Position numbers and translations under genes: made by a program | Shown: positions 1 to 64,000 of the stretch, in pieces | Layout: each line of letters opens with the position of its first letter | Numbering within the stretch: position 1 is the stretch's first letter | The notes under the pieces: generated by a model | What the model was told of the DNA's origin: nothing | Databases searched by the model: none | What the model saw: only the letters and a program-made list of their open reading frames with translations | NCBI GenBank assembly: GCA_947650365.1 | Contig: OX393553.1 | Location: 41,587,949 to 41,651,948, forward strand | Length of the DNA: 64,000 bases | Direction: 5' to 3' | Origin: Chamaelirium japonicum | Taxonomy: Eukaryota; Streptophyta; Magnoliopsida; Liliales; Melanthiaceae

Positions 1-692
1 ATTCGCACGAATGTATCCATTCTAATTCATTCATATGATCCATTCTAATTCATTCGTATGATCCATTCTAATTCATTCGTACGATCCATTCTAATTCCTT
101 CGTACGATCCATTCTAATTCATTCGTACGATCCATTCTAATTCATTAGCACGATCCATTCTAATTCATTCATAGGATCCATTCTAATTCATTTGTATGAT
201 CCATTCTAATTCATTCGCATGATCCATTCTAATTCATTCATACGATCCAGTGTAATTCATTCGTACAATCCATTCTAATTCATTCGCACGATCCATTCAA
301 ATTCACTCATACGATCCATTCTAATTCATTCATACGATCCATTCTAATTCATTCGTACGATCCATTCTAATTCATTCTTACGATATCCACTCTAATTCAT
401 TCATACGATCCATTCTAATTCATTCGTACGATCCATTTTAATTCATCATACGATCCATTCTAATTCATTTGTATGATCCATTCTAATTCATTCGCACGAT
501 CCATTCTAATTCATTTATACGATCCATTCTAATTCATTCATACGATCTATTCTAATTCTTTCGCACGAATGTATCCATTCTAATTCATTCGCACGAATGT
601 ATCCATTCTAATTCATTCATACGATCAATTCTAATTCATTCGCACAATCTATTCTAATTCATTCGTATGATCCATTCTAATTCATTCGTATG
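1..692 (+). repeat. F block
   Basis: This block opens within unit A1. It holds a shortened unit (TTCATCATACG near 444) also present at 19,930 and 39,890. It ends at the turn CATTCGTATG|CAAATGAATTA, conserved as a junction in all four A copies (692, 11,678, 20,181, 40,129). Confidence 0.9.
567..622 (+). repeat. Two consecutive 28-bp long-form monomers
   Basis: Units 567-594 and 595-622 begin GAATGTATCC in place of GATCC and so are 5 bp longer than the standard monomer. The long form usually follows a unit ending CGCAC. Its boundary CATTCG-CA-CGAATG is a short inverted repeat: the last six bases of an F unit are followed by their own reverse complement before the F sequence resumes. Confidence 0.9.
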
Positions 693-1610
693 CAAATGAA
701 TTATAATGGATCGTACGAATGAGTAAGAATGGATCGTACGAATGAATTAGAATGGATCGTACGAATGAATTAGAATAGATCGTACGAATGAATTAGAATG
801 GATCGTACGAATGAATTAGAATGGATCGTACGTACGAATGAATTAGAATGGATCATACGAATGAATTAGAATTGATACATTCGTGCGAATGAATTAGAAT
901 GGATCGTACGAATGAGTTAGAATGGATCGTACGAATGAATTTGAATGGATCGTGCAAATGAATTAGAATGGATCGTACGAATGAATTAGAATGGATCGTA
1001 CGAATGAATTAGAATGGATCGTATAAATGAATTAGAATAGATCGTACGAAGGAATTAGAATGGATCGTACGAATGAATTAGAATGGATATATTCGAGCAA
1101 ATGAATTAGAATGGATCGTATGAATGAATTAGAATGGATCATACAAAGGAATTTGAATGGATCATAAGAATGAAATATAATGGGTCATATAAAGGAATTA
1201 GAATGGATCGTACGAATGAATTAGAATGGATCGTGCGAATGAATTAGAATGGATCCGTATGAATGAGATAGAATGGATCGTATGAATTAGAATGGATCGT
1301 ACGAATGAATTAGAATGGATCGTGTGAAAGAATTAGAATGGATCGTATGAATGAATTAGAATGGATCGTGCGAATGAATTAGAATGGATCGTACGAATGA
1401 ATTAGAATGGATACATTCGTGCGATTGAATTAGAATGGATTGTACGAATGAGTAAGAATAGATCATACGAATGAAATAGAATGGATCATACGAATGAATT
1501 AGAATGGATCGTGCGAATGAATTAGAATGGATCGTACGAATGAATTAGAGTGGATACATTCGTACGAATGAATTGGAATGGATCATACGATTGAGTATGA
1601 ATGGATTGTA
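693..1610 (-). repeat. R block
   Basis: Reverse-complement monomers with a doubled CGTACGTACG near 828 and a shortened GGATCCGTATGAATGAG pair near 1,251. It ends where GGATTGTA meets CTCTAATTC, a turn found in each A copy. Confidence 0.9.
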
Positions 1611-2009
1611 CTCTAATTCATTCGCACGAATGTATCCATTCTAATTCATACGTACGATCCATTCTAATTCATTCGCACGATCCATTCTAATTCATTCATA
1701 CAATCAATTCTAATTCTTTTGCATGAATGTATCCATTCTAATTCATTCGTACGATCCATTCTAATTCATTCGTATGATCCATTCTAATTCATTCGCACGA
1801 TCTATTCTAATTCATTCATACGATCCAATCTAATTCATTCATACGATCCATTCTTACTCATTCGTATGATCTATTCTAATTGATTCGTACGATCCATTCT
1901 AATTCATTTGTATGATCCATTCTAATTCATTCGTACGATCCATTCTAATTCATTCATACGATCCATTCTAATTCATTTGCACGAATATATCCATTCTAAC
2001 TCATTCGTA

Positions 2010-2140
2010 CGATCCATTCTTATTCATTCCCATGAATGTATCCATTCTAATTCATACGTACGATCCATTCTAATTCATTTATACGATCCAATCTAATTCA
2101 TTCATACAATCCATCCTAATTCATTCGTTCGAATTTATCC
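2010..2140 (+). repeat. Cassette W, reference copy
   Basis: A linked string of rare variants: CATTCTTATTCATTCCCATG, then AATGTATCC, CATACGTACG, CATTTATACGATCCAATC, CATACAATCC and GAATTTATCC. It recurs in F orientation near 13,025, 21,505, 27,860, 41,505, 48,790 and 63,660. Its first part recurs as the reverse complement near 3,290, 5,680, 15,045, 22,780, 25,150, 32,625, 42,770, 57,360 and 60,905. Confidence 0.85.
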
Positions 2141-2176
2141 ATTCTAATTCATTCGTACGATCCATTCTAATTCATT

Positions 2177-2280
2177 CGCATAATCTATTCTAATTCATTC
2201 GTACGTTCCATTCTAATTCATTAGCACGATCCATGCTAATTCATTCGTACGATCCATTCTATTTCATTCGTACGATCCAT
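2177..2280 (+). repeat. Cassette V, reference F copy
   Basis: Linked variants CGCATAATCTATTC, CGTACGTTCC, CATTAGCACG, CCATGCTAATTC and CTATTTCATTCG. F copies lie near 13,188, 21,660 and 41,650. The exact reverse-complement order lies near 28,520, 48,597 and 57,742. Confidence 0.85.
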
Positions 2281-3130
2281 TCTAATTCATACGATCCATT
2301 CTATTTTATTCATACGATCCATTCTAATTCATTCGCATGATCCATTCTAATTCATTAATACGATTCATTCTAATTCATTCGTATAATCCATTCTAATTCA
2401 TTCGCACGATCCATTCTAATTCATTCATATAATCCAATCTAATTCATTCATACGATCCATTCTAATTCATTCACACAATCTATTCTAATTCATTCGTACG
2501 ATCCATTCTAATTCATTCGTACGATCCATTCTAATTCATTCGTACGATCTGTTCTAATTCATTAATACGATCCAATCTAATTCATTCATACGATCCATTC
2601 TAATTCCTTCGTACGATCCATTCTAATTCATACGATCCCTTCTATTTCATTCATACGATCCATTCTAATTCATTCGCACGATCCATTCTAATTCATTCAT
2701 ACGATCCATTCTAATTCATTCGTACGATCCATTCTAATTCATTCGCACGATCCATTCTAATTCATTCGCAAGATCCATTCTAATTCATTCGTACGATCCA
2801 TTCTAATTCATTCGTACGATCCATTCTAATTCATTCGTACGATCCATTCTAATTCATTCACACGATCCATTCTAATTCATTTATACGATCCATTTTAATT
2901 CATTCATAACACGAATGTATCTATTCTAATTCATTAACACGAATGTATCTATTCTAATTCATTCGTACGATTCATTCTAATTCATTCGCACGATCCATTC
3001 TTATTCATTCATACGATCCATTCTAATTCATTCGCACGATCCATTCTAATTCATTCATACGATCCATTCTAATTCATTCGTACGATCCATTCTAATTCAT
3101 TCGCACGATCCATTCTAATTCATTCGCATG

Positions 3131-3484
3131 AATGGATCGTACGAATGAATTAGAATGGATACATTCGTGTGAATGAAGTAGAATGGATCATACGAATGAG
3201 TAAGAATAGATCGTACGAATGTATTAGAAGGGAATGGATTGTACGAATGAATTAGAATGGATCGTGGGAATGAATTAGAATGGATCGTACGTATGAATTA
3301 GAATGGATACGTTCATGGGAATGAATAAGAATGGATCGTACAAATGAATTAGAATAGATCGTACGAATGAATTAGAATGGATATATTTGTGCAAATGAAT
3401 TAGAATGGATCGTATGAATGAATTAGAATGGATCGTACGAATGAATTAGAATGGATCGTACGAATGAATTAGAATGGATCATAC
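3131..3484 (-). repeat. R block, 354 bp
   Basis: It includes the insertion GAAGGGAATGG (near 3,227) and the R form of the CATGGGAATG cassette (near 3,300). The right end is an inverted repeat of 20-nt arms with one mismatch (3,463-3,502) centred on ATAC. Confidence 0.9.
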
Positions 3485-4867
3485 GATCCATTCTAATTCA
3501 TTTGCATGAATGTATCCATTCTAATTCATTCGTACGATCCATTCTAATTCATTTATATGATCCAATCTAATTTATTCATACAATCCATTCTAATTCATTC
3601 GCACGAATGTACGATCCATTCTTACTCATTCGTACAATCCATTCTAATTCATTCGCACGAATGTATCCATTCTAATTCATTCGTACAATCCATTCTAATT
3701 CATTCGCACAATCCATTCTATTTCATTCGTACGATCCATTCTAATACATTCGCACGAATGTATCCATTCTAATTCATTCGTACGATCCATTCTAATTCCT
3801 TCGTACGATCCATTCTTATTCATTCGCACGATCCATTCTAATTCCTTCATTCTAATTCATTCGCACGAATGTATCCATTCTAATTCATTCGTACGGTCCA
3901 TTCTAATTCATTCGCACAATCTATTCTAATTCATTCGTACGATCCATTCTAATTCATTAACACGATCCATTCTAATTCATTCATACAATCCATTCTAATT
4001 CTTTTGCATGAATGTATCCATTCTACTTCATTCGTACGATCCATTCTAATTCATTTGTACGATCCATTCTAATTCATTCACACGATCCATTCTAGTTCAT
4101 TCATACGATCCAATCTAATTCATTCGTACGATCCATTCTAATTCATTCGCATAATCTATTCTAATTCATTCGCACAATCCATTCTAATTCATTAATACAA
4201 TCCATTCTATTTCATTCGTACGATCCATTCTAATTCATTCGTACGATCCATTCTAATTTATTTGTATGATCCATTCTATTTCATTCGTACGATCTATTCT
4301 AATTCATTCATACGATCCATTCTAATTCATTCGCACGAATGTATCCATTCTAATTCATTCGTACGATCCATTCTAATTCATTCGTACGATCCATTCTAAT
4401 TCACTCATACGATCCATTCTAATTCATTCGCACGAATGTATCCATTCTAATTCCTTCGTACGATCCATTCTAATTCCTTCGTACGATCTATTCTAATTCA
4501 TTCGTACGATCCATTCTAATTCATTCATACGATCCAACCTAATTCATTCGTACGATCCATTCTAATTCATTCGCACGATCCATTCTAATTCATTCACACG
4601 ATCCATTCTAATTCATTCATTCTAATGTATCCATTCTAATTCATTCGTACGATCCATTCTAATTCATTCATACGATCCAACCTAATTCATTCGTACGATC
4701 CATTCTAATTCATTCGCACGATCCATTCTAATTCGTTCATACGATCCATTCTTATTCATTCATTCGAATGTATCCATTCTAATTCATTCGTATGATCCAT
4801 TCTAATTCATTCGTACGATCCATTCTAATTCATTAGCAGGATCCATTCTAATTCATTCGTACGATCC
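3485..4867 (+). repeat. F block
   Basis: It contains a 71-codon open frame at 3,557-3,772 that is a repeat by-product, and irregular units CCTTCATTCTAATTC near 3,842 and CATTCATTCTAATG near 4,614. It closes at GATCCGTACGAATG, where an F head abuts an R tail. Confidence 0.9.
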
Positions 4868-6109
4868 GTACGAATGAAATAGAATGGATCGTACGAATGA
4901 ATTAGAGTTGATACATTCGTGCGAATGAATTAGAATGGATCGTACGAATGAGTAAGAAAGGATCCTACGAATGAATTAGAATGGATTGTATAAATGAATT
5001 AGAATGGATCGTACGAATGAATTAGAATGGATCGTATGAATGAATTAGAATGGATCGTGCAAATGAATTAGAATAGAATGAATCGTATGAATGAATTAGA
5101 ATAGATTGTGCGAATGAATTAGAATGGATCGTACGAATGAAATAGAATGGATCGGTAAGAATGGATTGTACGAATGAATTAGAATGGATCGTGCGAATGA
5201 ATTAGAATGGATCGTACGAATGAATTAGAATGGATCGTATGAATGAGCAAGAATGGATCGTACGAATGAAATAGAATAGATTCTACGAATGAATTAGAAT
5301 AGATTGTGCGAATGAATTAGAATAGATCGTACGAATGAATTAGAATGGATACATTCGTGCGAATGAATTAGAATGGAACGTACGAATGAATTAGAATGGA
5401 TACATTCATGCAAAAGAATAAGAATGGATCGTATGAATGAATTAGATTGGATCGTATGAATGAATTAGAATGGATCGTGCGAATGAATTAGAATGGATCG
5501 TATGAATGAATTAGAATGGATCGTATGAATGAATTAGAATGGATTGTGCGAATGAATTAGAATGGATCGTATGAATGAATTAGAATGGATAAATTCGTGC
5601 GAATGAATTAGAATGGATTGTATGAATGAATTAGATTGGATCGTATAAATGAATTAGAATGGATCGTACGTATGAATTAGAATGGATACAGTCATGGGAA
5701 TGAATAAGAATGGATCGTACGAAGGAATTAGAATGGATCGTGCGAATGAATTAGAATAGATCGTATGAATGAATTAGAATCGATCGTACGAATGAATTAG
5801 AATGTATCATACGAATGAATTAGAGTGGATCGTGTGAAAGAATTAGAATAGATTATATGAATGAATTAGAATGGATCGTATGAATGAATTAGAATGGATC
5901 GTGCGAATGAATTCGAATGGATCGTGCGAATGAAATAGAATGGATACAAATGAATTAGAATGGATCATACGAATGAATTAGAATGGATCGTATGAGTGAA
6001 TTCGAATGGATCATGCGAATGAATTAGAATGGACTGTACAAATGAATTAGAATGGATTATGCTAATGAGTAAGAATGGATCGTACGAATGAAATAGAATG
6101 GATTGTACG
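4868..6109 (-). repeat. R block
   Basis: Markers are GGATCCTACG near 4,972, GAATAGAATGAATCG near 5,070 and the shortened unit GATCGGTAAGAATGG near 5,151. The first 360 bp belong to unit A and the rest to part B. It ends at GTACGC|GATCC. Confidence 0.9.
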
Positions 6110-7654
6110 CGATCCATTCTAATTCCTTCGTACGATCCATTCTAATTCCTTCATACGATCCATTCTAATTCCTTTGTTCTAATTCATTCATACGATCCAT
6201 TCTAATTCATTCGTACGATCCATTCTTACTCATTAGCACGATCCATTCTAATTCATTCGTACAATCCATTCTAATTCATTCGCACGATCCATTCGAATTC
6301 ACTCATACGATCCATTCTAATTCATTCGTATGATTCATTCAAATTCATTTGTATCCATTCTATTTCATTCGCACGATCCATTCGAATTCATTCGCACGAT
6401 CCATTCTAATTCATTCATACGATCCATTCTAATTCATTCATATGATCCATTCTAATTCATTCGTACGATCCATTCTAATTTATAAGTATGATCCATTCTA
6501 ATTCATTCGTACGATCCATTCTAATTCATTCGTACGATCCATTCTAATTAATTCGCACGAATGTATCCATTCTAATTCATTCGTACGCCCATTCTAACTC
6601 ATTCGCACAATGTATTCAAATTCATTCGTACGATCCATTCTAATTCATTCGCACGATCCATTCTAATTTATTTGCACGATCCATTCTAATTCATTCATAC
6701 AATCCATTCTAATTCTTTTGCACGAATGTATCCATTCTAATTCATTCGTACGATCCACTCTAATTCATTCGCACGATCCATTCTAATTCCTTCGTACGAT
6801 CCATTCTAATTCTTTTGTACGACCCATTATATTTCATTCGTATGATCCATTCTAATTCCTTTGTAAGATGCATTCTAATTCATTCCCATGAATGTATCCA
6901 TTCCATTCTAATTCATTCGCACGATCCATTCTAATTCATTTATACGATCCAATCTAATTCATTCATACGATCCATTCTAATTCTTTCGTACGAATGTATC
7001 CATTCTAATTTATTCGTACGTTCCATTCTAATTCATTCGCACGAATGTATGCATTCTAATTCATTCGTACGATCTATTCTAATTCATTCGCACAATCTAT
7101 TCTAATTCATTCGTACAATCCATTCTATTTCATTCATACGATCCATTCTTACTCATTTGTACGATCCATTCTAATTCAATCGTACGATCCATTCTAATTC
7201 ATTCGCACGATCCATTCTTATTCATTCGTACAATCCATTCTTATCGATCCATTCTATTTCATTCGTACGATCCATTCTAATTCATTCGCACAATCTATTC
7301 TAATTCATTCGTACGATCCATTCTAATTCATTCGCACGATCCATTCTAATTCATTTGCACGATCCATTCTAATTCATTCATACAATCCATTCTAATTCTT
7401 TTGCACGAGCACGATCCATTCTAATTCATTCGCACGAATGAATCCATTCTAATTCATTCGTACAATCCATTCTATTTCATTCGTACGATCCATTCTTACA
7501 CATTCGTACGATCCATTCTAATTCATTCGCACGAATGTATCCATTCTAATTCATTTGTACGATCAATTCTAATTCATTCGCACAATCTATTATAATTCAT
7601 TCGTACAATCCATTCTAATTCATTCATACGATCCATTCTAATTCATTCGTACAA
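6110..7654 (+). repeat. F block
   Basis: It holds the GACCCATTATATTTC cassette near 6,828, a CATTCCCATGAATG cassette near 6,883, and truncated units TTATCGATCC near 7,241 and CACGAGCACGATCC near 7,404. It switches at CAATCAATT|AGAATGG. Confidence 0.9.
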
Positions 7655-7920
7655 TCAATTAGAATGGATCATACGATTGAGTAAGAATGGATCGTACGAA
7701 TGAAATAGAATAGATCGTACGAATGAATTAGAATGGATCGTGTAAAAGAATTAGAATGGATTGTATGAATGAATTAGAATAGATCGTATGAATGAATTAG
7801 AATGGATCGTACGAATGAATTAGAATAGATTGTACGAATGAATTAGAATGGATCGTACGAAGGAATTAGAATGCATCATACGAATGAAATAGAATGGATC
7901 ATACGAAGGAATTAGAATGG
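7655..7920 (-). repeat. R block, 266 bp
   Basis: Eleven or so R units ending in the abrupt turn AGAATGG|CGTACGATC, which is preserved at 27,398. Confidence 0.88.
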
Positions 7921-8499: not shown

Positions 8500-10568
8500 G
8501 AATTAATTAGAATGGATCGTACGAATGAATTAGAATTGATCACATGAATGAATTAGAATGGATCATGCGAATGAATTAGAATGGATTATACGAATGAAAT
8601 AGAATGGAACATACGAATGAAATAGAATGGATCGTACGAAGGAATTAGAATGGATCGTATGAATGAATTAGAGTGGATACATTCGTGCAAATGAATTAGA
8701 ATGGATCGTACAAATGAATTAGAATGGAATGGATACATTCATGGGAATGAATTAGAATGGATCGTACAAAGGAATTAGAATGGATCATACGAATGAAATA
8801 TAATGGGTCGTACAAAGGAATTAGAATGGATCGTACGAAGGAATTAGAATGGATCGTACGAAGGAATTAGAATGGATCGTACGAATAAATTAGAATGGAT
8901 ACATTCGTGCAAAAGAATTAGAATGGATTGTATGACTGAATTAGAATGGATCGTGCAAATGAATTAGAATGGATTGTGCGAATGAATTAGAATGGATCGT
9001 ACGAATGAATTAGAATAGATTGTGCGAATGAATTAGAATGGATCGTACGAATGAATTAGAATGGATACATTCGTGCGAATGAATTAGAATGGATACATTC
9101 GTGCGAATGAATTAGAATCGATCGTATGAATGAGTTAGAATGGATCGTATGAGTGAATTCGAATGGATCGTGCGAATGAATTAGAATAGATTGTATGAAT
9201 GAATTAGAATGGATCGTACGAATGAATTAGAATAGATACATTTGTGTGAATCCATTCTATTTCATTCGTACGATCCATTCTAATTCATTCGTACGATCCA
9301 TTCTTACTCATTCGTACGATCCATTCTTCCTCATACGTACGATCCATTCTAATTCATTCGCATACGAATGAATTAGAATGAATAATACGAATGAATTAGA
9401 ATAGATTGTGTGAATGAATTAGAATGGATCGTACAAAATGAGTAGGAATGGATCGTATGAATGAAATAGAATGGATTGTACGAATGAATTAGAATGGATT
9501 CATTCGTGCGAATGAATTAGAATGGATCGTGCGAATGAATTAGAATGGATCGTACGAATGAATTAGAATGGATCGTATGAATGAATTAGAATGGATACAT
9601 TCGTGCGAATGAATTAGAATGGATCGTACGAATGAGTAAGAATGGATCGTACGAATGAAATAGAATGGATTGTGCGAATGAATGAGAATGGATCGTACGA
9701 ATGAATTAGAATGGATCATGTGAAAGAATTAGAATGGATTGTATGAATGAATTAGAGTGGATCGTATGAATGAATTAGAATGGATCATGCGAATGAATTA
9801 GAGTGGATCGTACGAATGAATTAGAATGGATCGTATGAATGAATTAGAATGGATCGTGCGAATGAATTAGAATGGATCGTACGAATGAATTAGAATGGAT
9901 CGTACGAATGAATTAGAATGGATCGTATGAATGAATTAGATTGGATTGTATGAATGAATTAGATTGGATCGTATAAATGAATTAGAATGGATCGTGCAAA
10001 TGAATTAGAATGGATCGTACAAAGGAATTAGAATGGATCGTACGAATGAATTAGAATGGATCGTATGACGTGTGAAAGAATTAGAATGGATTGTATGAAT
10101 GAATTAGAATCGTACGAATGAATTAGAATGGATACATTCGTGCGAATGAATTAGAATGGATCGTATGAATGAATTAGATTGGATCGTATTAATGAATTAG
10201 AATGGATCGTGCGAATGAATTAGAATGGATCGTACGAATGAATTAGAAGGATACATTCGTGCGAATGAATTAGAATGGATCGTATGAATGAATTAGAATG
10301 GATTGTATGAGTGAATTCGAATGGATCGTACGAATGAATTAGAATAGATTGTGTGAATGAGTAAGAATGGATCGTACGAAGGAATTAAATTGGATCGTAT
10401 GAATGAATTAGAATGGATCGTGTGAATGAATTAGAATGGATCATACGAATGAATTAGAATGGATCGTATGAATGAATTAGAATGGATCGTACAAAGGAAT
10501 TAGAATGGTTCGTACGAATGAATTAGAATGGATCGTATGAATGAATTAGAATGGATCGTAAGAATGGA
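8500..10568 (-). repeat. Module T, copy 1
   Basis: Mostly R monomers with a small F island at 9,248-9,361. Landmarks shared with 16,260-18,179 are the doubled GAATGGAATGG near 8,725, GAATAAATTAG near 8,883, the abrupt GAATCCATTCTATTTC switch at 9,248, and GTATGACGTGTGAAAG near 10,055. It ends at a perfect palindrome centred on GGATCC (10,561-10,576). Confidence 0.85.
9248..9361 (+). repeat. Small F island inside module T
   Basis: About five F units, including CATTCTTCCTCATACG, sit between R runs. The island is entered through GTGTGAATCCATTC and left through CGCATACGAATG. Its counterpart is 16,919-17,043. Confidence 0.87.
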
Positions 10569-11677
10569 TCCATTCTAATTCATTCGTACGATCCATTCTA
10601 ATTCATTCGCACGATCCATTCTAATTCATTCATACGATCCATTCTAATTCATTCATACAATCCATTCTAATTCTTTCACACGATCCATTCTAATTCGTTC
10701 ATACGATCCATTCTAATTCATTCGTACTATCCATTCTATTTTATTCGTATGATCCATTCTTACTCATTCGTACGATCCATTCTAATTTATTCGCACGAAT
10801 GTATCCATTCTAATTCATTCGTACGATCCATTCTAATTCATTCGTACGATCCATTATAATTCTTTCACACGATCCATTCTTACTCATTCGTATTATCCAT
10901 TTTAATTCATTCGTACAATCCATTCTATTTCATTCATACGATCCATTCTAATTCATTCGTACGATCCATTCTAATTCATTCTTACACGTGCACGATCCAT
11001 TGTAATTCATTCGCACAAATGTATCCATTCTAATTCATTCATACGATCTATTCTAATTCATTCGTACGATCCATTCTAATTCCTTCGTACGATCCATTCT
11101 AATTCATTCATACGATCCATTCTAATTCATTCATACGATCCATTCTAATTCATTCGCACGATCCATTCTAATTCATTCATATGATCCATTCTAATTCATT
11201 TGTATGATCCATTCTAATTCATTCGCACGATCCTTTCTAATTCATTCATACGATCCATTCTAATTCATTCGTACAATTCATTCTAATTCATTCGCACGAT
11301 CCATTCGAATTCACTTATACGATCCATTCTAATTCATTCATTCGATCCATTCTAATTTATTCGTACGATCCATTCTAATTCATTCTTATGATATCCACTC
11401 TAATTCATTCATACGATCAATTCTAATTCATTCGTACGATCCATTCTAATTCCTTCGTACGATCCATTCTAATTCATTCGCACGATCCATTCTAATTCAT
11501 TCATACGATCCATTCTAATTCATTTATATGATCTATTCTAATTCTTTTGCACGAATGTATCCATTCTAATTCATTCGCATGAATGCATCCATTCTAATTC
11601 ATTCGTACGATCCATTCTAATTCATTCGCACAATCTACTCTAATTCATTCGTACGATCCATTCTAATTCATTCGTAT
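10569..11677 (+). repeat. F block, start of A2
   Basis: It opens at the 16-bp palindrome AGAATGGATCCATTCT and carries the CTTACACGTGCACG marker at 10,981. The ATTCTTTCACACGATCC units near 10,670 and 10,860 are typical of unit A starts (also near 19,170 and 39,120). Confidence 0.88.
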
Positions 11678-12643
11678 GCGAATGAATTAGAAAGGATCGT
11701 ACGAATGAGTAAGAATGGATCGTACGAATGAATTAGAATGGATCGTACGAATGAATTAGAATAGATCGTACGAATGAATTAGAATGGATCGTATGAATGA
11801 ATTAGAATGGATCGTACGTACGAATTAATTAGAATGGATCGCACGAATGAATTAGAATGGATTATACGAATGAATTAAAATGGATACAATCCTGCGAATG
11901 AATTAGAATGGATCGTACGAATGAGTTAGAATGGATCGTACGAATGAATTAGAATGGATCGTGCGAATGAATTACAATGGATCGTACAAATGAATTAGAA
12001 TGGATCGTATGAATGAATTTGAATGGATCGTACGAAAGAATTAGAATGGATCGTACGAATGAATTAGAATGGATTGTACGAATGAATTAGAATGGATATA
12101 TTCGTGCAAATAAATTAGAATGGATCGTATGAATGAATTAGAATGGATCGTACAAAGGAATTAGAATGGATCATACGAATGAAATATAATGGGTCGTACA
12201 AAGGAATTAGAATGGATCGTACGAATGAACTAAATTGGATCATGCGAATGAATTAGAATGGATCCATATGAATGAAATAGAATGGATCGTATGAATTAGA
12301 ATGGATCGTACGAATGAATTAGAATGGATCGTGTGAAAGAATTAGAATGGATTGTATGAATGAATTAGAATGGATCGTATGAATGAATTAGAATGGATCG
12401 TGCAAATGAATTAGAATGGATCGTACGAATGAATTAGAATGGATACATTCGAGCGAATGAATTAGAATGGATCGTACGAATGAGTAAGAATGGATCGTAC
12501 GAATGAAATAGAATGGATCATACGAATGAATTAGAATGGATCGTGCGAAGGAATTAGAATGGATCGTACGAATGAATTAGAGTGGATACATTCGTACGAA
12601 TGAATTAGAATGGATCATACGAATGAGTAAGAATGGATCGTAC
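11678..12643 (-). repeat. R block of A2
   Basis: Counterpart of 693-1,610, with the same doubled CGTACGTACG near 11,816 and GGATCCATATGAATG near 12,261. It ends at GTAC|TGTAATTC. Confidence 0.88.
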
Positions 12644-13290
12644 TGTAATTCATTCGCACGAATGTATCCATTCTAATTCATTCGTACGATCCATTCTAAT
12701 TCATTCGCACGATCCATTCTAATTCATTCATACAATCCATTCTAATTCTTTTGCACGAATGTATCCATTCTAATTCATTTCTACGATCCATTCTAATTCA
12801 TTCATATGATCCATTCTAATTCGTTCGCATGATCCATTCTAATTCATTCATACGATCCAATCTAATTCATTCATATCATCCATTCTTACTCATTCGTATG
12901 ATCCAATCTAATTCATTTGTACGATCCATTCTAATTCATTTGTACGATCCATTCTAATTCATTCATACGATCCATTCTAATTCATTTGCACGAATATATC
13001 CATTCTAATTCATTCGTACGATCCATTCTTATTCATTCCCATGAATGTATCCATTTTAATTCAAATTTACGATCCATTCTAATTCATTTATACGATCCAA
13101 TCTAATTCATTCGTACAATCCATTCTAATTCATTCGCGCGAATTTATCCATTCTAATTCATTCCTACGATCCATTCTAATTCATTCGCACAATCTATTCT
13201 AATTCATTCGTACGTTCCATTCTAATTCATTAGCACGATCCGTGCTAATTCATTCGTACGATCCATTCAATTTCATTCGTACGATCCATT

Positions 13291-14069
13291 CTAATTCATA
13301 CGATCCATTCTATTTTATTCATACGATCCATTCTAATTCATTCGCACGATCCATTCTAATTCATTCATACGATCCATTCTAATTCATTCGTATGATCCAT
13401 TCTAATTCATTCGCACGATCCATTCTAATTCATTCATATGATCCAATCTAATTCATTCATACGATCCATTCTAATTCATTCGCACAATATATTCTAATTT
13501 ATTCGTACGATCCATTCTAATTCATTCGTACGATCCATTCTAATTCATTCGTACGATCCATTCTAATTCAATAATATGATCCATTCTAATTCATTCATAC
13601 GATCTATTCTAATTCCTTCGTACGATCCATTCTAATTCATATGATCCCTTCTATTTCATTCATACGATCCATTCTAATTCATTCGCACGATCCATTCTAA
13701 TTCATTCATACGATCCATTCTAATTCATTCGCACGATCCATTCTAATTCATTCACACGATCCATTCTAATTCATTCGTATGATCCATTCTAATTTATTCG
13801 TACGATCCATTCTAATTCATTCGCACGATCCATTCTAATTCATTCATACGATCCATTTTAATTCATTCATACAATCCATTCTAATTCATTCACACGAATG
13901 TATCCATTCTAATTCATTCGTACGATCCATTCTAATTCAGTCGCACGATCCATTCTAATTCATTCGCACGATCCATTGCAATTCATTTATACGATCCATT
14001 CTAATTCATTCGTACGATCCATATGAATTCATTCGTACGATCCATTCTAATTCATTCGTACGATCCATT
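13291..14069 (+). repeat. 779-bp local tandem duplication, first copy
   Basis: The rare 19-bp units CTAATTCATACGATCC at 13,291 and CTAATTCATATGATCC at 13,632 recur at 14,070 and 14,411, both 779 bp away, with similar units between. The other A copies hold this region once (2,286-2,640; 21,775-22,130; 41,768-42,100), so the duplication is specific to A2. The edges are approximate. Confidence 0.75.
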
Positions 14070-14848
14070 CTAATTCATACGATCCATTCTATTTTATTCA
14101 TACGATCTATTCTAATTCATTCGCACGATCCATTCTAATTCATTCATACGATCCATTCTAATTCATTCGTATGATCCATTCTAATTCATTCACACGATCC
14201 ATTCTAATTCATTCATATGATCCAATCTAATTTATTCAAACGATCCATTCTAATTCATTCGCAAAATCTATTCTAATTTATTCGTACGATCCATTCTAAT
14301 TCATTCGTACGATCCATTCTAATTCATTCGTACGATCCATTCTAATTCATTCATACGATCCAATCTAATTCATTCATACGATCTATTCTAATTCCTTCGT
14401 AGGATCCATTCTAATTCATACGATCCCTTCTATTTCATTCATACGATCCATTCTAATTCATTCGCACGATCCATTCTAATTCATTCATACAATCTATTCT
14501 AATTCATTCGTACGATCCATTCTAATTCATTCGCACGATCCATTCTAATTCATTCGCACGATCCATTCTATTTCATTTTTATGATCCATTCTAATTCATT
14601 CGTACGATCCATTCTAATTCATTCGCACGATCCATTCTAATTCATTCATACGATCCATTTTAATTCATTCATACAATCCATTCTAATTCATTCACACGAA
14701 TGTATCCATTCTAATTCATTCGTACGATCCATTCTAATTCATTCGCACAATCCATTCTAATTTATTCATACGATCCATTCTAATTCATTCGCACGATCCA
14801 TTCTAATTCATTCATACGATCCATTCTAATTCATTCGTACGATCCATT
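14070..14848 (+). repeat. 779-bp local tandem duplication, second copy
   Basis: This is the second copy of 13,291-14,069. Both 19-bp marker units and the neighbouring GATCCCTTCTATTTC unit are retained; several single-base differences show that the duplication is not brand new. Confidence 0.75.
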
Positions 14849-14886
14849 CTAATTCATTCGCACGATCCATTCTAATTCATTCGCAT

Positions 14887-15263
14887 GAATGGATCATACG
14901 AATGAATTAGAATGGATACATTCGTGCGAATGAATTAGAATGGATCATACGAATGAGTAAGATTGGATTGTACGAATGAATTAGAAGGGAATAGATTGTA
15001 CGAATGAATTAGAATGGATCGTACGAATGAATTAGAATGGATCGTACGTATGAATTAGAATGGATACATTCATGGGAATGAATAAGAATGGATCGTACGA
15101 ATGAATTAGAATGGATCGTACGAATGAATTAGAATTGATAGATTCGTGCAAATGAATTAGAATGGATCGTATGAATGAATTAGAATGGATCGTACGAATG
15201 AATAAGAATGGATCGTACGAATGAATTAGAATGGATCGTACGAATGAATTAGAATGGATCATA
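14887..15263 (-). repeat. R block of A2
   Basis: Counterpart of 3,131-3,484, one monomer longer. A 79-codon open frame on the - strand (15,032-15,271) is the repeat motif, not a gene. It ends in the same ATAC-centred inverted repeat. Confidence 0.88.
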
Positions 15264-44803: not shown

Positions 44804-44832
44804 ACACGATCCATTCTAATTCATTCATACGA
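44804..44832 (+). repeat. Single inverted F monomer, second X copy
   Basis: Same single-unit inversion as 37,292-37,316, with identical flanks. Confidence 0.87.
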
Positions 44833-49911: not shown

Positions 49912-50187
49912 TGGATACATTTGTGCGAATGAATTAGAATGGATCGTATGAATGAATTAGAATAGATTATGCGAATGAACTAGAATGGATCGTACGAATG
50001 AATTTGAATGGATACATTCGTGCGAATGAATTAGAATGGGTCGTACGAATGAATTAGAATGGATCGTACGAATGAATTAGAATGGATCGTACGAACGAAA
50101 TAGAATGGATTGTACGAATGAATTAAAATGGATCGTACGAATGAATTAGAATGGATATATTCGTGCAAATGAATTAGAATGGATCGT
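49912..50187 (-). repeat. R block ending in a perfect palindrome
   Basis: About twelve R units. The right end forms the left arm of the 40-bp palindrome 50,168-50,207. Confidence 0.88.
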
Positions 50188-50207
50188 ACGATCCATTCTA
50201 ATTCATT
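50168..50207. repeat. 40-bp perfect palindrome at an R-to-F junction
   Basis: The left arm AATGAATTAGAATGGATCGT (50,168-50,187) is followed with no spacer by its exact reverse complement. The centre is GT|AC within GATCGTACGATC. This is the cleanest of the inversion points. Confidence 0.93.
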
Positions 50208-50443: not shown

Positions 50444-51252
50444 GACCCATTATATTTCATTCATACGATCCATTGTAATTCATTAATATGATCCAATCTA
50501 ATTCATTCATATGATCCATTCTAATTCCTTCGTATGATCCATTCTAATTCATACGATCCATTCTATTTCATTCGTACGATCCATTCTAATTCATTCGTAC
50601 GATCCATTCTAATTCATTCGCACAATCTATTCTAATTCATTCGCACGAATGTATCCATTCTAATTCATTCGTACGTATCCATTCTAATTCATTCGCACGA
50701 ATGTATCCATTCTAATTCATTCGCACGATCCATTCTAATTCATTCGCACGATCCATTCTAATTCATTCGTACGATCCATTCTAATTCATTCGTATGATCC
50801 TTTCTAATTCATTCGTACGATCCATTCTAATTCATTCGCACAATCTATTCTAATTCATTCATATGATCCATTCTAATTCATTTGCACGAATGTATCCATT
50901 CTAATTTATTCATAAGATCCATTCTAATTCATTCGTACGATCCATTCTAATTCACTCATACGATCCATTCTAATTCATTCGCACGAATGTATCCATTCTA
51001 ATTCCTTCGTACGATCTATTCTAATTCATTCGTACGATCCATTCTAATTCATTCATACGATCCAATCTAATTCATTCGTACGATCCATTATAATTCATTC
51101 GCACGATCCATTCAAATTCATTCATACAATCCAATCTAGTTCATTCATACGATCCATTCTAATTCATTCGTACAATCCAATCTAATTCATTCGCACGATC
51201 CATTCGAATTCATTCATACGATCTATTCTAATTCATTCGTATGATCCATTCC
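50444..51252 (+). repeat. F block
   Basis: It begins with the F form of the GACCCATTATATTTC cassette. Long-form pairs lie near 50,645 and 50,698. It ends in a truncated GATCCATTC|CGAATG. Confidence 0.86.
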
Positions 51253-51485
51253 GAATGAATTAGAATGGATCGTGCTAATGAATTAGAATTGATCGTACGA
51301 ATGAATTAGAATAGATTGTGCGAATGAATTAGAATGGATCGTACGAATGAATTAGAATGGATCATACGAATAAATTAGATTGGATATATTCGTGCAAATG
51401 AATTAGAATGGATCGTATGAATGAATTAGAATGGATCGTACGAATGAATTAGAATGGATACATTCGTGCGAATGAATTAGAACAT
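51253..51485 (-). repeat. Short R block
   Basis: Ten R units, the first with GTGCTAATG. The turn is TTAGAACATACGATCC. Confidence 0.86.
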
Positions 51486-53733: not shown

Positions 53734-54041
53734 ATCTAATTCATTCATACGATCCAATCTAATTCATTCGCACAATCTATTCTAATTCATTCGTACGATC
53801 CATTCTAATTCATTCGTACGATCCATTCTAATTCATTCGCACGAATGTATCCATTCTAATTCATTCGTACGATCCATTCTAATTCATTCGCACAATCTAT
53901 TCTAATTCATTCGTACGATCAATTCTAATTCATTAGCACGATCCATTCTAATTCATTCGTACGATCTATTCTAATTCATTTGTACGATCCATTCTTACTC
54001 ATTCGTATGATCCATTCTAATTCATTCGCACGAATATATCC
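53734..54041 (+). repeat. F block
   Basis: Thirteen F units, entered at ATCGTAATCTAATTC and left at GAATATATCC|TACGAATG. That exit form is also used near 61,129. Confidence 0.86.
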
Positions 54042-54159
54042 TACGAATGAATTAGAATGGATACATTCGTGCAAATGAATTAGAATGGATCGTATGTATG
54101 AATTAGAATGGATACATTTATGCGAATGAATAAGAATGGATCGTACGAATAAAGTAGAA

Positions 54160-55120
54160 TGGATCGTACGAATGAATTAGAATGGATCGTACGAATGAAT
54201 TAGAATGGATCGTACGAATGAAATAGAATGGATCGTACGTATGAATTAGAATGGATCGTGCGAATGAATTAGAATGGATCGTGCGAATGAATTAGAATGG
54301 ATCGTACGAATGAATTAGAATGGATCGTATGAATGAATTAGAATGGATTGTGCGAATGAATTAGAATGGAACGTACGAATGAATTAGAATGGATCGTATG
54401 AATGAATTAGAATAGATTGTGTGAATGAATTAGAATGGATCATACGAATGAGTAAGAATGGATTGTACGAATGAAATAGAATGGATTATACGAATGAATT
54501 AGAATGGATCGTATGAATGAATTAGAATGGATCGTACAAAGGATGGATACATTCGTGCGAATGAATTAGAATGGATCGTACGAATGAATTAGAATGGATC
54601 GTATGAATGAATTAGAATAGATCGTGCGAATGAATTAGAATGGATCGTATGAATAAATTAGAATAGATCGTGCGAATAAATTAGAATGGATCGTACGAAT
54701 GAAATAGAATGGATCGTACGTGTGAATTAGAATGGATCGTGCGAATGAATTAGAATGGATCGTGCGACTGAATTAGAATGGATCGTACGAATGAATTAAA
54801 ATGGATCGTATGAATGAATTAGAATGGATTGTGCGAATGAATTAGAATGGATCGTACGAATGAATTAGAATGGATCGTATGAATGAATTAGAATAGATTG
54901 TATGAATGAATTAGAATGGATCATACGAATGAGTAAGAATGGATCGTACGAATGAAATAGAATGGATTATACGAATGAATTAGAATGGATCGTATGAATA
55001 AATTAGAATGGATCGTACAAAGGATGGATACATTCGTGCAAATGAATTAGAATGGATCGTACGAATGAATTAGAATGGATCGTAAGAATGAATTAGATTG
55101 GATCGTGCAAATGAATTAGA
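54160..55120 (-). repeat. Local tandem duplication, ~481-bp period
   Basis: The string GATTATACGAATG ... CAAAGGATGGATACATTCG occurs at 54,484-54,556 and again at about 54,964-55,037; the truncated CAAAGGATGG is at 54,537 and 55,018, 481 bp apart. Flanking units (GATCGTACGTATG against GATCGTACGTGTG near 54,233 and 54,717) also correspond. The outer edges are approximate. Confidence 0.75.
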
Positions 55121-55379
55121 ATGGATCGTATGAATGAATTAGAATAGATCGTGCGAATGAATTAGAATGGATCTTACGAATGAATTAGAATGGATCGTAT
55201 GAATGAATTAGAATGGATCGTGCGAATGAATTAGAATGGATCGTGCGAATGAATTAGAATGGATCGTACGAATGAATTAGAATGGATCGTAGGAATGAAT
55301 TAGAATGGATCGTATGAATGAATTAGAATGGATCGTATGAATGAATTAGAATGGATCGTGCGAATGAATTAGAATGGAT

Positions 55380-56750
55380 CGTGCGAATGAATTAGAATGG
55401 ATTGTACGAAGGAATTAGAATGGATCGTACGAAGGAATTAGAATGGATGGTATGAATGAATTAGAATGCATATATTCGTGCAAATGAATTAGAATGGATC
55501 GTATGAATGAATTGGAATGGATCGTATGAATGAATTAGAATGGATCGTGCGAATGAATTAGAATGGATCGTGCGAATGAATTAGAATGGATCGTACGAAT
55601 GAATTAGAATGGATCGTATGAATGAATTAGAATGGATCATACGAATGAATTAGAATGGATCGTACCAATGAATTAGAATGGATCGTATGAATGAATTAGA
55701 TTGGATCGTTTGAATGAATTAGAATGGATCGTGCGAATGAATTAGAATGGATCGTGCGAATGAATTAGAATGGATTGTACGAAGGAATTAGAATGGATCG
55801 TACGAATGAATTAGAATGGATATATTCGTGCAAATGAATTAGAATGGATCGTACGAATGAATTAAAATGGATCGTATGAATGAATTAGAATGGATCGTGC
55901 AAATGAATTAGAATAGATCGTGCGAATGAATTAGAATGGATCGTACGAATGAATTAGAATAGATCGTATGAATGAATTAGAATGGTTCGTTTGAAGGAAT
56001 TAGAATGGATCATACGAATGAATTAGAATGGATCGTATGAATGAATTAGATTGGATCGTATGAATAAATTAGAATGGATCGTGCGAATGAATTAGAATGG
56101 ATCGTGCGAATGAATTAGAATGGATTATACGAAGGAATTAGAATGGATCGTATGAAGTAATTAGAATAGATCGTATGAATGAATTAGAATGGATATATTT
56201 GTGCAAATGAATTAGAATGGATCGTACGAATGAATTAGAATGGATCGTATGAATGAATTAGAATGGATCGTCCGAATGAATTAGAATGGATCGTGCGAAT
56301 GAATTAGAATGGATCGTACGAATGAATTAGAATGGATCGTATGAATGAATTAGAATGGATCGTACGAAGGAATTAGAATGGATCGTACGAATGAATTAGA
56401 ATGGATCGTACGAATGAATTAGAATGGATCGTATGAATTAATTAGATTGGATCGTATGAATGAATTAGAGTGGATCGTGCGAATGAATTAGAATGGATCG
56501 TGCGAATGAATTAGAATGGGTTGTACGAAGGAATTAGAATGGATCATACGAAGGAATTAGAATGGATCGTACGAATGAATTAGAATGGATATATTCATGC
56601 AAATGAATTAGTATGGATCGTACGAAGGAATTAGAATGGATCGTATGAATGAATTAGAATGGATCGTGCGAATGAATTAGAATGGATCGTGCAAATGAAT
56701 TAGAATGGATCGTACGAATGAATTAGAATGGATCGTACGAATGAATTAGA
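55380..56750 (-). repeat. Higher-order repeat, four copies, period 350-397 bp
   Basis: Each copy has two or more GTACGAAGGAATTAG units followed by a long-form TATATTCGTGCAAATG unit. The long form starts at 55,471, 55,821, 56,193 and 56,590, spacings of 350, 372 and 397 bp. These are within 1 bp of 14, 15 and 16 standard units plus one 28-bp unit. Confidence 0.75.
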
Positions 56751-57228
56751 ATGGATGTGTGAATGAATTAGAATGGATCGTGCGAATAAATTAGAATGGA
56801 TTGTACGAAGGAATTGGAATGGATCGTATGAATGAATTAGAATGGATCGTGCGAATGAATTAGAATGGATCGTACGAATGAATTAGAGTTGATACATTCG
56901 TGCGAATGAATTAGAATGGATCGTACGAATGAGTAAGAATGGATTGTATGAATGAATTAGAATGGATCGTATGAATGAATTAGAATGGATCGTACGAATG
57001 AATTAGAATGGATCGTATGAATGAATTAGAATAGATCGTGCAAATAAATTAGAATGGATCGTATGAATGAATTAGAATGGAACATACTTATGAATTAGAA
57101 TGGATCGTACGAATGAATTAGAATGGATACATTCGTGCGAATGAATTAGAATGGATCGTATGAATGAATTAGAATGGATCGTGCGAATGAATTAGAATGA
57201 ATCGTACGAATGAATTAGAATAGATATA

Positions 57229-58517
57229 CGATCCATTCTAATTCATTCATACGATCCATTCTAATTCATTCGTACGATCCTTTCTAATTCCTTTGTACGA
57301 TCCATTCTAATTCATTCATACGATCCATTCTTGTATTAATGAATTAGAATGGATCGTACGTATGAATTAGAATGGATACATTCATGGGAATGAATAAGAA
57401 TGGATCGTACGAATGAATTAGAATGGATCGTACGAATGAATTAGAATGGATCGTACGAATGAATTGGAATGGATCGTGCGAATGAAATAGAATGGATCGT
57501 ACGTATGAATTAGAATGGATCATGCGAATTAATTAGAATGGATCGTACGAATGAATTAGAATGGATCGTACGAAGGAATTAGAATTGATATATTCGTGCA
57601 AATGAATTAGAATGGATCGTACGAATGAATTAGAATGGATCATGCTAATGAATTAGAATGGATCGTACGAATGAATTAGAATAGATTGTGCGAATGAATT
57701 AGAATGGATCGTACGAATGAATTAGAATGGATCGTTATAATGGATCGTGCGAATGAAATAGAATTGATCGTATGATTGAATTAGCATGGATCATGCTAAT
57801 GAATTAGAATGGAACGTACGAATGAATTAGAATAGATTGTGCGAATGAATTAGAATGGATCGTACGAATGAATTAGAATGGATCATGCTAATGAATTAGA
57901 ATGGATCGTAGTTATGAATTAGAATGGATCGTACGTGCGAATGAATTAGAATGGATTATACGAATGAAATAGAATGGATCATACGAATGAAATAGAATGG
58001 ATCGTATGAAGGAATAAGAATGGATCGTATGAATGAATTAGATTGGATCGTATTAATGAATTAGAATGGGTCATACGAATGAATTAGAATGGATCGTGCT
58101 AATGAGTAAGAATGGATTGCATCACGATCCATTCTAATTCATTCATACGATCCAATCTAATTCATTCATGCGATCCATTCTTACTCATTCGTATGATCCA
58201 TTCTAATTCGTTCGTACGATCCATTCTAATTCATTCGTACAATCCATTCTATTTTATTCGTACGATCCATTCTAATTCATTCGTACAATCCATTCAAATT
58301 CATTCGTACGATCCATTCTACGATCCATTCTAATTCATTCGTACGTTCCATTCTAATTCATTAGCATGATCCACGCTAATGAATTAGAATGGATCGTACG
58401 AATGAATCAGAATGGATCGTACGAAGGAATTAGAATGGATCGTACGAAGAAATTAGAATGGATCGTATGAATGAATTAGAATGGATCGTACGAATTAATT
58501 AGAATGGATACATTCGT
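57229..58517. repeat. Cluster of four blocks (F, R, F, R) with cassette V
   Basis: F 57,229-57,332; R 57,333-58,124 with the CATGGGAATG cassette near 57,380 and V near 57,734-57,845; F 58,125-58,376 (a chance 73-codon frame at 58,112-58,333); R 58,377-58,517. The joint near 58,376 is CACGCTAATGAATTAG, turning at the GCTAAT variant. Confidence 0.85.
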
Positions 58518-61129: not shown

Positions 61130-61384
61130 TACGAATGAATTACAATGGATATATTCGTGCAAATGAATTAGAATGGATCGTATGAATTAATTAGAATGGA
61201 TCGTACGAATGAATTAGAATGGATCGTATGAATGAATTAGAATGGATCATACGAATGAATTAGAAATGGATCGTATGAATGAAATTAGAATGGATCGTAT
61301 GAATGAAATAGAATGGATCGTATGGATTAGAATGGATCGTACGAAGGAATTAGAATGGATCGTATGATTGAATTAGAATGGATA
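61130..61384 (-). repeat. R stretch before module T copy 3
   Basis: R units with frame-changing slips: GAATTAGAAATGG near 61,258, GAATGAAATTAG near 61,279 and GTATGGATTAG near 61,320. Confidence 0.85.
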
Positions 61385-62477
61385 CATTCGTAGCGAATGA
61401 ATTAGAATGGATCGTACGAATGAGTAAGATTGGATCGTACGAATGAAATAGAATGGATTGTACGAATGAATTAGAATGGATTCATTCGTGTGAATGAATT
61501 TGAATGGATCGTGCGAATGAATTAGAATGGATCGTACGAATGAATTAGAATGGATATATTCGTGCGAATGAATTAGAATGGATCGTACGAATGAGTAAGA
61601 ATGGATCGTACGAATAAAATAGAATGGATTGTACGACTAAATTAGAATGGATCATGCGAATGAATTAGAATGGATAGTGTGAAAGAATTAGAATGGATTG
61701 TATGAAGGAATTAGAATGGATCGTATGAATGAATTAGAGTGGATCGTGCGAATGAATTAGAATGGATTGTATGAATAAATTAGAATGGATCGTATGAATG
61801 AATTAGAATGGATCGTGCGAATGAATTAGAATGGATCGTACGAATGAATTAGAATGGATCGTATGAATGAATTAGATTGGATCGTATAAATGAATTAGAA
61901 TGGATCGTGCAAATGAATTAGAATGGATCGTACGAAGGAATTAGAATGGATCGTACGAATGAATTAGAATGGATCGTATGACGTGTGAAAGCATTAGAAT
62001 GGATTGTATGAATGAATTAGAATTGTACGAATGAATTAGAATGGATACATTCGTACGAACGAATTAGAATGGATCGTTTGAATGATTTAGATTGGATCGT
62101 ATTAATGAATTAGAATGGATCATGCGAATGAATTAGAATAGATCGTACGAATTAATTAGAATGGATACATTCGTGCAAATGAATTAGAATGGATCATATG
62201 AATGAATTAGAATGGATCGTATGAGTGAATTTGAATGGATCGTACGAATGAATTAGAATAGATTGTGCGAATGAGTAAGAATGGATCGTACGAAGGAATT
62301 AGATTGGATCGTATGAATGAATTAGAATGGATCGTGCGAATGAATTAGAATGGATCGTATGAATGAATTAGAATGGATCGTATGAATGAATTAGAATGGA
62401 TCGTACAAAAAGAATTAGAATGGATCGTACGAATGAATTAGAATGAATCGTATGAATGAATTAGAATGGATCGTGTA
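61385..62477 (-). repeat. Module T, partial third copy
   Basis: The right half of module T recurs here. GAGTAAG, GAAATAG and GGATTCATTCG units near 61,420-61,480, the GTATGACGTGTGAAAG truncation near 61,976, GATCGTATTAATG near 62,095 and the switch to F orientation at 62,477 occur in the same order as at 9,430-10,568. The left half, including the small F island, is missing. Confidence 0.78.
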
Positions 62478-64000
62478 TGTACGATCCATTCTAATTCCTT
62501 CGTACAATCCATTCTATTTCATTCGTTCAATCCATTCTTATTCATTCGCACAATCTATTCTAATTCATTCGTATGATCCATTCTAATTCATTAGCACGAT
62601 CCATTCTAATTCATTTGTACGATCCATTCTATTTCATTCGTAAGATCCATTTCTAATTCATTCGTACGATCCATTCTAATTCATTCGTACGATCCATTCT
62701 AATTCATTCGCACGAATGTATCCATTCTAATTCATTCGTATGATCCATTCTAATTCCTTCGTACGAATGTATCCACTCTAATTCATTCGTACGATCCATT
62801 CTAATTCATTCGCACGATCTATTCTAATTCATTCATACGATCTATTCTAATTCATTCGCACGATCCATTCTAATTCATTCATACGATCCAATCTAATTCA
62901 TTCGTACGATCCATTCTAATTCATTCGCACGATCCATTCTAAATCATTCGTACAATCCATTCTTACTCATTCGTACGATCCATTCTAATTTATTCATTCA
63001 TACGATCCATTCTAATTCATTCGTATGTATCCATTCTAATTTATTCGTACGATCCATTCTAATTCATTCGTACGATCCATTCTAATTCATTCGTACGATC
63101 CATTCTAATTCATTCGCACGATCCATTCTAATTCATTCGCACGAATGTATCCATTCTAATTCCTTCGCACGATCCATTCTAATTCATTCATACGATCCAA
63201 TCTAATTCATTCATACGATCCATTCTAATTCTTTCGCACGAATGTATCCATTCTAATTCATTCGTACAATCCATTCTAATTTATTACTACGAAAAAACAC
63301 AATACACTCTAATTCGATCATACGATCCATTCTAATTCATTCATACAATCTATTCTAATTCTTTCACACGATCCATTCTAATTTATTCATACGATCCATT
63401 CTAATTCATTCGTATGATCCATTCTAATTCATTCGTACAATCCATTCTATTTCTTTCGTACGATCCATTCTTACTCATTCGTACGATCCATTCTAATTCA
63501 TTCGCACGAATGTATCAATTATTATTCATTCATACGATCCATTCTAATTCATTCGTACGATCCATTCTAATTCCTTCGTACGATCCATTCTAATTCCTTC
63601 GTATGATCCATTCTAATTTCATTCGTATGATCCATTCTAATTCCTTCGTACGATCCATTCTTATTTATTCCCATGAATGTATCCATTCTAATTCATACGT
63701 ACGATCCATTCTAATTGATTTATACGATCCAATCTAATTCATTCATACAATCCATTCTAATTCATTCACACGAATGTACAATCTATTCTAATTCATTCAT
63801 ACGATCCATTCTAATTCATTCGCACGATCCATTCTAATTCATTCGCACGAATGTATCCGTTCTAATTCATTCGTACGATCCATTCTAATTCATTCGCACG
63901 AATGTATCCATTCTAATTCATTCGTACGATCCATTCTAATTCATTCGCACAATCCATTCTAATTCATCCGTACGATCTATTCTAATTCATTCGTACGATC
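62478..64000 (+). repeat. F block, runs off the right edge
   Basis: Mixed F units with a 24-bp CCATTTCTAATTC near 62,647, a W cassette near 63,665-63,780 and the non-satellite patch near 63,290. A 24-bp CTAATTTCATTCG unit near 63,612 and the units that follow match 27,818 onward. Confidence 0.88.
63287..63311. other. Short non-consensus patch, possibly a relict insertion
   Basis: ACTACGAAAAAACACAATAC followed by ACTCTAATTCG interrupts the monomer series. The run of six A and the ACACAATACAC string have no parallel elsewhere in the window. About 20 bases cannot be aligned to the monomer, and the next unit resumes with ATTCGATCATACG. It is too short to assign to any element. Confidence 0.7.

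Follow-up and report, generated by a model that had tools for sequence, protein, structure and literature searches.

The closest described relatives of the DNA considered here are Chio1 and Chio2, satellites of the holocentric plant Chionographis japonica, which has 12 chromosomes. The passages of Kuo et al. (2023; PMC10264360) that deal with Chio describe monomers of 23 and 28 bp differing by 5 bp plus 1 bp, an 8-bp dyad from which a hairpin between neighbouring monomers is predicted, CENH3 occupancy, and forward and reverse arrays mixed within each centromere unit; they mention a Chio higher-order repeat cluster, CL73, and contain no flip counts, junction classes or repeats of the flip pattern over 9–75 kb. 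Chama, the centromeric satellite of Chamaelirium luteum in the sister genus, shares TTCGTACGA with Chio but has a 60-bp monomer and consistently oriented arrays, and the relevant sections of the 2025 paper on it contrast these with the ‘frequently alternating orientation’ of Chio arrays and call the mechanism by which the megabase units spread unknown (PMC12722358). Orientation changes within short-monomer arrays are also described for human beta satellite and HSat arrays (‘mosaic inversion structure’; PMC9186530), and human HSAT2 lies on both strands (PMC10138405); both are likened to Chio from the descriptions in the pertinent parts of those papers. In CUS-TR24 of Cuscuta europaea, also a satellite of a holocentric plant, the corresponding section of PMC8091179 gives 10–15% opposite-orientation neighbours within 1–10 kb but, unlike Chio, a 389-bp monomer, arrays broken by simple repeats and long interspersed nuclear elements (LINEs), and a prevailing orientation. 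The present analysis concerns a stretch of 64,000 nucleotides (the window) at positions 41,587,949–41,651,948 of contig OX393553.1 (C5), in an assembly (GCA_947650365.1) of 1,518,659,071 bp and 3,253 contigs. The window is probably part of one C. japonica centromere unit and, like the published arrays, it mixes both orientations; our interest is in the junctions at which the orientation flips.

The entire window is made of one 23-bp satellite (monomer ATCCATTCTAATTCATTCGTACG), monomer-like 8-mers with at most one mismatch covering 98.7% of its bases and the longest run unlike the monomer being 19 bp (63286–63304). Read in tandem, the monomer contains TTCGTACGA and the 8-bp dyad, and net shifts of +5, marking 23-bp against 28-bp monomers that differ by a 5-bp indel and one substitution, number 1,147 in the surrounding 250 kb (C5:41,490,001–41,740,000). 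Judged by the 23- and 28-bp monomers, their 5-bp and one-substitution difference, the shared TTCGTACGA and the published mixture of orientations, the satellite is probably Chio1/Chio2. A circular two-strand profile hidden Markov model (HMM) was trained on the window, and Viterbi segmentation by strand cut it into 87 blocks separated by 86 flips, with 33,791 bp in forward (F) and 30,209 bp in reverse (R) orientation and block lengths of 27–3,194 bp (median 485). The initial annotation, made from the letters alone, had counted 87 blocks and about 86 flips, with roughly 34 kb F and 30 kb R in blocks of 25 bp to 3.2 kb, and had proposed just such a segmentation as a check; the model reproduces the counts exactly and the totals and range closely, and far fewer blocks did not result. 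The segmentation is identical at switch priors of 1e-3, 1e-4, 1e-6 and 1e-9, which rules out the mosaic as a product of chance; a prior of 1e-2 gives 103 blocks, the additional ones being as short as 5 bp. The array and three of its parts are as follows.

1–64000, no single strand: putative Chio1/Chio2 array of the 23-bp monomer and a 28-bp variant in 87 alternating blocks, within an array of at least 250 kb (C5:41,490,001–41,740,000).
560–612, + strand: example of a 28-bp Chio2-type monomer (...CATTCGCACGAATGT-ATCC...), equal to the 23-mer plus AATGT and one T-to-C change, in a row of period 28.
37291–37317, + strand: shortest block of the HMM segmentation, about one monomer flipped; its duplicate is at 44804–44830.
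54032–57225, − strand: longest block of the window in the HMM segmentation, R, 3,194 bp.

Comparison of the flip junctions with one another shows that duplication of existing junctions, rather than repeated flipping, lies behind much of the flip count. We clustered 413 junctions (364 from the 250 kb on C5 and 49 from a second contig, C143) by the 200 bp around each, both strands being compared. At the strict threshold these fall into 158 families, 81 of them with a single member, while the 86 junctions of the window fall into 48 families and 70 of the 86 belong to families with more than one member. (Looser thresholds gave 135, 111 and 81 families; a threshold of 150/165, at which the largest family had 61 members of mixed phase, was given up in favour of the strict one.) Exact 100-mers are concentrated at offsets of 19,479–19,489, 19,994, 39,474 and 7,513, and 1-kb tiles starting at positions 1–7,001 match 19.5–27.5 kb at 98.4–99.7%. 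Moreover, 19 consecutive shared families recur in the same order at an offset of 19,530, and further ordered runs comprise two of nine families at about 9.5 kb, one of eight at 62.8 kb and one of eight at 75.5 kb, the 9.5-kb and 75-kb runs being located outside the window. Inverted runs of families are at most three long, and several of these lie in self-symmetric strings; of 553 high-scoring junction pairs, 488 are direct and 65 inverted, the latter in 17 of 77 multi-copy families. Since the mosaic contains long direct duplications, the flip count overstates the number of independent events, and flip counts should not be equated with counts of inversion events. The duplicated segments that reach into the window are these.

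1–7920, + strand: end of the first copy of a 19.5-kb direct higher-order repeat containing flips; the shared run begins upstream at C5:41,577,667 (19 junction families at offset 19,530; tiles 98.4–99.7% identical).
9249–27399, + strand: second copy of the 19.5-kb repeat with the same junction order (tile matches and ordered families).
39437–44318, + strand: third, partial copy, 92–98% identical, at offsets of 39,436–39,482 from the first copy and 19,947–19,994 from the second.
37290–38829, + strand: duplicated segment with five shared junctions, matching 44,803–46,395 at an offset of about 7,513.

The flipped 27-bp monomer at 37291–37317 is kept in the duplicate at 44804–44830, so that even the smallest flip of the window was inherited. 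The long R blocks at 54032–57225 and 29095–32028 show local homogenization at offsets of about 300–720 bp with 88–93% identity, unlike the 19.5-kb repeat.

Junctions are shared well beyond the window. On C143, 48 of 49 junctions belong to families also found on C5 (loose clustering; strict family strings agree), and in two 6-kb pieces at C5:14.8 and 15.0 Mb eight of ten junctions match, with best scores of 165–192, the other two scoring 155.5 and 157, close to background. Genome-wide searches with 200-mers covered three junctions, the best 40 of about 800–1,100 candidates being scored for each; contigs C1–C12 are presumably the 12 chromosomes, judged by their size.

1512–1711, + strand: widespread R-to-F junction 1611/1612; 40 of 40 scored candidates full length (197–200 of 200 bases) at 95–100% identity.
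51152–51351, + strand: widespread F-to-R junction 51251/51252; 40 of 40 scored candidates full length at 97–100%.
57231–57430, + strand: private F-to-R junction 57330/57331; among the best 40 of 805 candidates the sole full-length match above 90% is the junction itself.

Among the best 40 of 1,087 candidates, junction 1611 was matched on C1, C2, C5, C6, C8, C9, C10, C12 and six other contigs, 20 times on the + and 20 times on the − strand, with no length change in the scored matches. Junction 51251 was matched on C2, C4, C5, C6, C8, C10, C12 and nine other contigs among the best 40 of 848 candidates (17 on the + and 23 on the − strand). For junction 57330, which is single in the 250 kb, the next full-length match has 85% identity, which is background, while its left 104 bases match elsewhere at 93–96%. 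Two kinds of junction exist, then, widely copied and private. The Chio satellite and its mixed orientation are already published, and in the literature searched, with figures, supplements and most subscription papers outside its scope, we found no recurring junction families, spread of junctions across chromosomes or junction-level study for Chio. The junction-level picture is a useful addition to those reports, with shared junctions available as sequence markers for the spread of megabase centromere units during the origin of holocentricity.

Our current working hypothesis, to which we attach a probability of roughly 0.56, is that orientation-blind repair using short homology was followed by amplification and by copying between centromere units. 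A break or stalled fork inside the array would be repaired by joining to, or restarting at, another place in the satellite with little homology, with no regard to orientation or monomer register; roughly one join in two would reverse the strand and appear as a flip, and the rest would appear as same-strand register breaks. Candidate pathways are microhomology-mediated end joining and template switching; for satellite centromeres generally, break-induced replication with template switching is a published proposal (PMC8997354). The TCGTACGA palindrome would impose an approximately four-fold bias among the junctions that are single in the DNA examined, which we take to be younger, the relative ages of junctions being presumptive throughout. 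Amplification, for the most part in direct orientation, would then have turned junction-bearing segments into repeats spaced about 9.5, 19.5 and 75 kb apart, and with further copying among the centromere units of different chromosomes, a step suggested by the shared junction sequences, old junctions would accumulate. For this copying step the authors of the Chio report propose, in its discussion of the satellite, interlocus gene conversion (PMC10264360). A more specific version, to which we lean only tentatively and at slightly less than even odds, is that a limited number of founder junctions from orientation-blind repair were copied, in both directions, to units on most chromosomes, while new private junctions arise with the TCGTACGA dyad bias. 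If true, the mosaic would be a readable record of unit-to-unit spreading in the origin of the holocentromere, and its junctions heritable markers of the movement of centromere DNA.

Orientation-blind joining draws its support from register breaks within one orientation. Counted as shifts of at least 6 bp, with shifts of −17 to −19 excluded, same-strand breaks in the 250 kb number 218; they form 86 families when clustered with the flip thresholds and 103 under a stricter setting. Simulated joins were detected at a rate of 0.55 on the same strand and 1.0 on opposite strands, and correction for detection gives about 396 same-strand breaks (156 families) against 364 flips (159 families, C5 alone). 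With same-strand breaks roughly matching flips in number, no strand-reversing process is required; the parity favours orientation-blind joining without proving it. Several points weigh against the hypothesis. A ratio of about 1:1 is likewise expected from large random inversions; the same-strand class is enlarged by slippage within monomers, with 79 of the 218 being shifts of −16 or −9; and the definition of that class omits shifts below 6 bp and those of −17 to −19, its families numbering 103 instead of 86 when the stricter threshold is used. Microhomology at junctions does exceed the uniform expectation (mean 2.86 against 2.04 bp for F-to-R junctions, p=0.0002; 2.54 against 2.04 bp for R-to-F junctions, p=0.006), which speaks for the hypothesis, but the excess is small and partly derived from the palindrome, since without the palindrome axis the means are 2.19 against 1.77 bp (p=0.0006) and, non-significantly, 1.93 against 1.77 bp (p=0.11), respectively. 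The family count depends on the clustering threshold, ranging from 81 to 158 over four settings, and the three junctions searched genome-wide, with 40 scored candidates each, are a small sample. C143, given an assembly larger than the 1C size of 1,368 Mb, may be the other haplotype of the same unit and hence no independent locus; and copying would be indistinguishable from shared descent, the units having split from one ancestral array. Lastly, pairs of junctions compatible with inversion were counted at lags of 1, 3, 5, 7, 9, 11 and 15, giving 3, 4, 7, 8, 9, 5 and 8 pairs against permutation means of 3.7, 4.1, 5.0, 5.7, 5.3, 4.6 and 5.1 (SDs about 2); five of the seven lags lie above the mean and the sum is 44 against 33.5, though no single lag stands out, and the pooled excess hints weakly that some inversions extend over several blocks.

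The last result leads to ordinary reciprocal inversions, small or large, arising by two-break repair or by recombination between inverted copies. We think this explanation unlikely, even though junction families do occur in both orientations (the 65 inverted pairs above), the widespread junctions lie on both strands among their best 40 candidates, and the exponential distribution of block lengths given below, together with the 1:1 ratio, fits large random inversions too. A reciprocal inversion should leave two junctions of complementary phase. With the junction axis taken as the sum of the two phases, which stays constant when a breakpoint slides within microhomology, the predicted axis difference is 2, yet adjacent pairs are compatible in 2 of 110 and 4 of 108 cases where chance gives 4.8 and 4.7, and over all family pairs 243 fall at the predicted offset against a mean of 271 (SD 39, z −0.73). 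Simulated pairing gives z of about 3.6 when complete and 2.7 when half complete, and quarter pairing (about 1.2) is compatible with the data; among locally single families alone the offset is occupied 88 times against 71 (SD 13), a figure raised in part by the palindrome axis. Runs of families in inverted order, moreover, are no longer than three, several of them in self-symmetric strings. Insertion of inverted fragments, recognizable by phase-continuous flanks, also stays at chance level (4 of 110 and 5 of 108 against 4.8 and 4.7). That the flips are an artefact of assembly or of chimeric reads is hardly credible. Private junctions such as 57330, single-copy among the best 40 candidates scored, are what an artefact might leave, but the HiFi libraries have mean lengths of 14–26 kb at 58.5x coverage and the median block is 473 bp, so that many flips fall within a single read; chimeras formed by fold-back should show identical arms, whereas those observed differ by about 17%; and junctions 1611 and 51251 each recur at all 40 scored places. 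Errors in the number of copies of the 19.5-kb repeat are still conceivable. Selection for mixed orientation, for instance through a need of centromeric chromatin for the dyad or hairpin on both strands, is very improbable. The balance of exact monomer 29-mers genome-wide (853,711 forward, 842,891 reverse) and the sharing of the dyad by the related Chama satellite, as its paper reports, would suit it; but Chama arrays are centromeric and yet consistently oriented over hundreds of kb (PMC12722358), either orientation places the palindrome on both strands, and a neutral process gives an equal balance.

A more particular proposal is fold-back at palindromes, in which the array is reversed when a broken end or growing strand snaps back, at the TCGTACGA dyad or between monomers, and uses itself as the template. 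For the analysis of axes, 23 of the 413 junctions, which touch blocks shorter than 27 bp and all lie outside the window, were dropped, leaving 143 families. The axis of the 8-bp palindrome TCGTACGA is used by 17 of these (6.2 expected, p=1.7e-4), and the excess lies with the locally single families (12 of 70 where 3.0 are expected, p=5e-5; multi-copy families 5 of 73, p=0.21), in which it persists whichever of three thresholds or three minimal block sizes is applied; of the 12, the one with phases 12|3 shares the axis but sits outside the palindrome itself. Two junctions of the window on this axis serve as examples.

34060–34061, no strand: R-to-F junction on the TCGTACGA axis (GGATCGT|ACAATC, one base off a perfect palindrome; phases R20|F20).
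50187–50188, no strand: locally single R-to-F junction on the same TCGTACGA axis (GGATCGT|ACGATCC; axis analysis).

Of 158 family representatives, 15 have a perfect palindrome of at least 12 bp at the junction, whereas 5% of random joins do, and the Chio report predicts a hairpin from the 8-bp dyad between neighbouring monomers. Fold-back as the general source of the flips is nevertheless rather improbable, because 58 of the 70 single and 68 of the 73 multi-copy families lie on other axes, and because the arms are in general not mirror images: in the 258 of 364 junctions with at least 100 bp on both sides their mean identity is 0.824, against 0.827 for random F–R pairs. A few junctions do have similar arms, four of the 258 exceeding the 99% level, with a best value of 0.938 at C5:41,517,799, but locally single junctions fare no better than others (arms of at least 0.89 in 1 of 57 against 6 of 252). 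Fold-back alone, furthermore, makes no same-strand register breaks. The initial annotation had suggested that the array was repeatedly inverted or folded back, for example by template switching at palindromes. This is borne out in part: the flip density is real, the junctions are mostly unlike those of inversions in place, and TCGTACGA is indeed over-used. A palindrome mechanism does not account for the 126 of 143 families off the axis, for arms that are not mirror images or for the 70 of 86 flips that belong to multi-member families, and, given about as many same-strand register breaks as flips after correction for detection, strand reversal is not a required part of the process. The Chio2 28-mer was considered as a flip site and rejected, as it is not enriched near junctions (0.196 against 0.227 inside blocks).

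The mosaic continues around the window. The surrounding 250 kb contain 367 satellite blocks and 364 flips (115,415 bp F, 131,280 bp R; median block 473 bp), with 24–51 flips in every 25-kb bin, and block lengths fit an exponential distribution (n=365, the first and last blocks dropped; mean 674; Kolmogorov–Smirnov p=0.62), as expected from random breakpoints. The 40 kb of C143 that were segmented (750,001–790,000) contain 49 flips, and 4.5 kb at C1:1.371 Mb flip too. An array of one orientation had been suspected on C1, where the places listed were all on the + strand, but the DNA itself includes an R block of 3,350 bp. Scaled by local density, the genome-wide 29-mer count corresponds to 363–385 Mb, or about 24–25% of the genome, against a published 16–17%, an estimate that overshoots if other arrays are nearer the consensus.

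A few minor observations may be added. Across the window (1–64000), variation in the monomer is concentrated at positions 18–23 (the CGTACG part, counted from 1) and has the look of CpG decay, although unevenly so, G19 being changed to A in 26% of monomers and C18 to T in 9%. Thirty-one bases of the monomer, used as a query, had no match in the collections of viral contigs and genome contigs searched. Only two non-satellite inserts, 3.3 kb in total, interrupt the 250 kb: that at C5:41,533,056–41,535,187 may be a long terminal repeat (LTR) element, and that at C5:41,736,580–41,737,752 opens with a T tract and, on visual inspection, looks like the end of a plant LINE. Telomere repeats in the assembly are of the plant type (6,816 exact TTTAGGG 28-mers against 92 TTAGGG 30-mers), and an interstitial array of such repeats at C1:105,031,000–105,053,000 switches strand between 105,032,124 and 105,032,656, so that changes of orientation in this genome are not confined to Chio.

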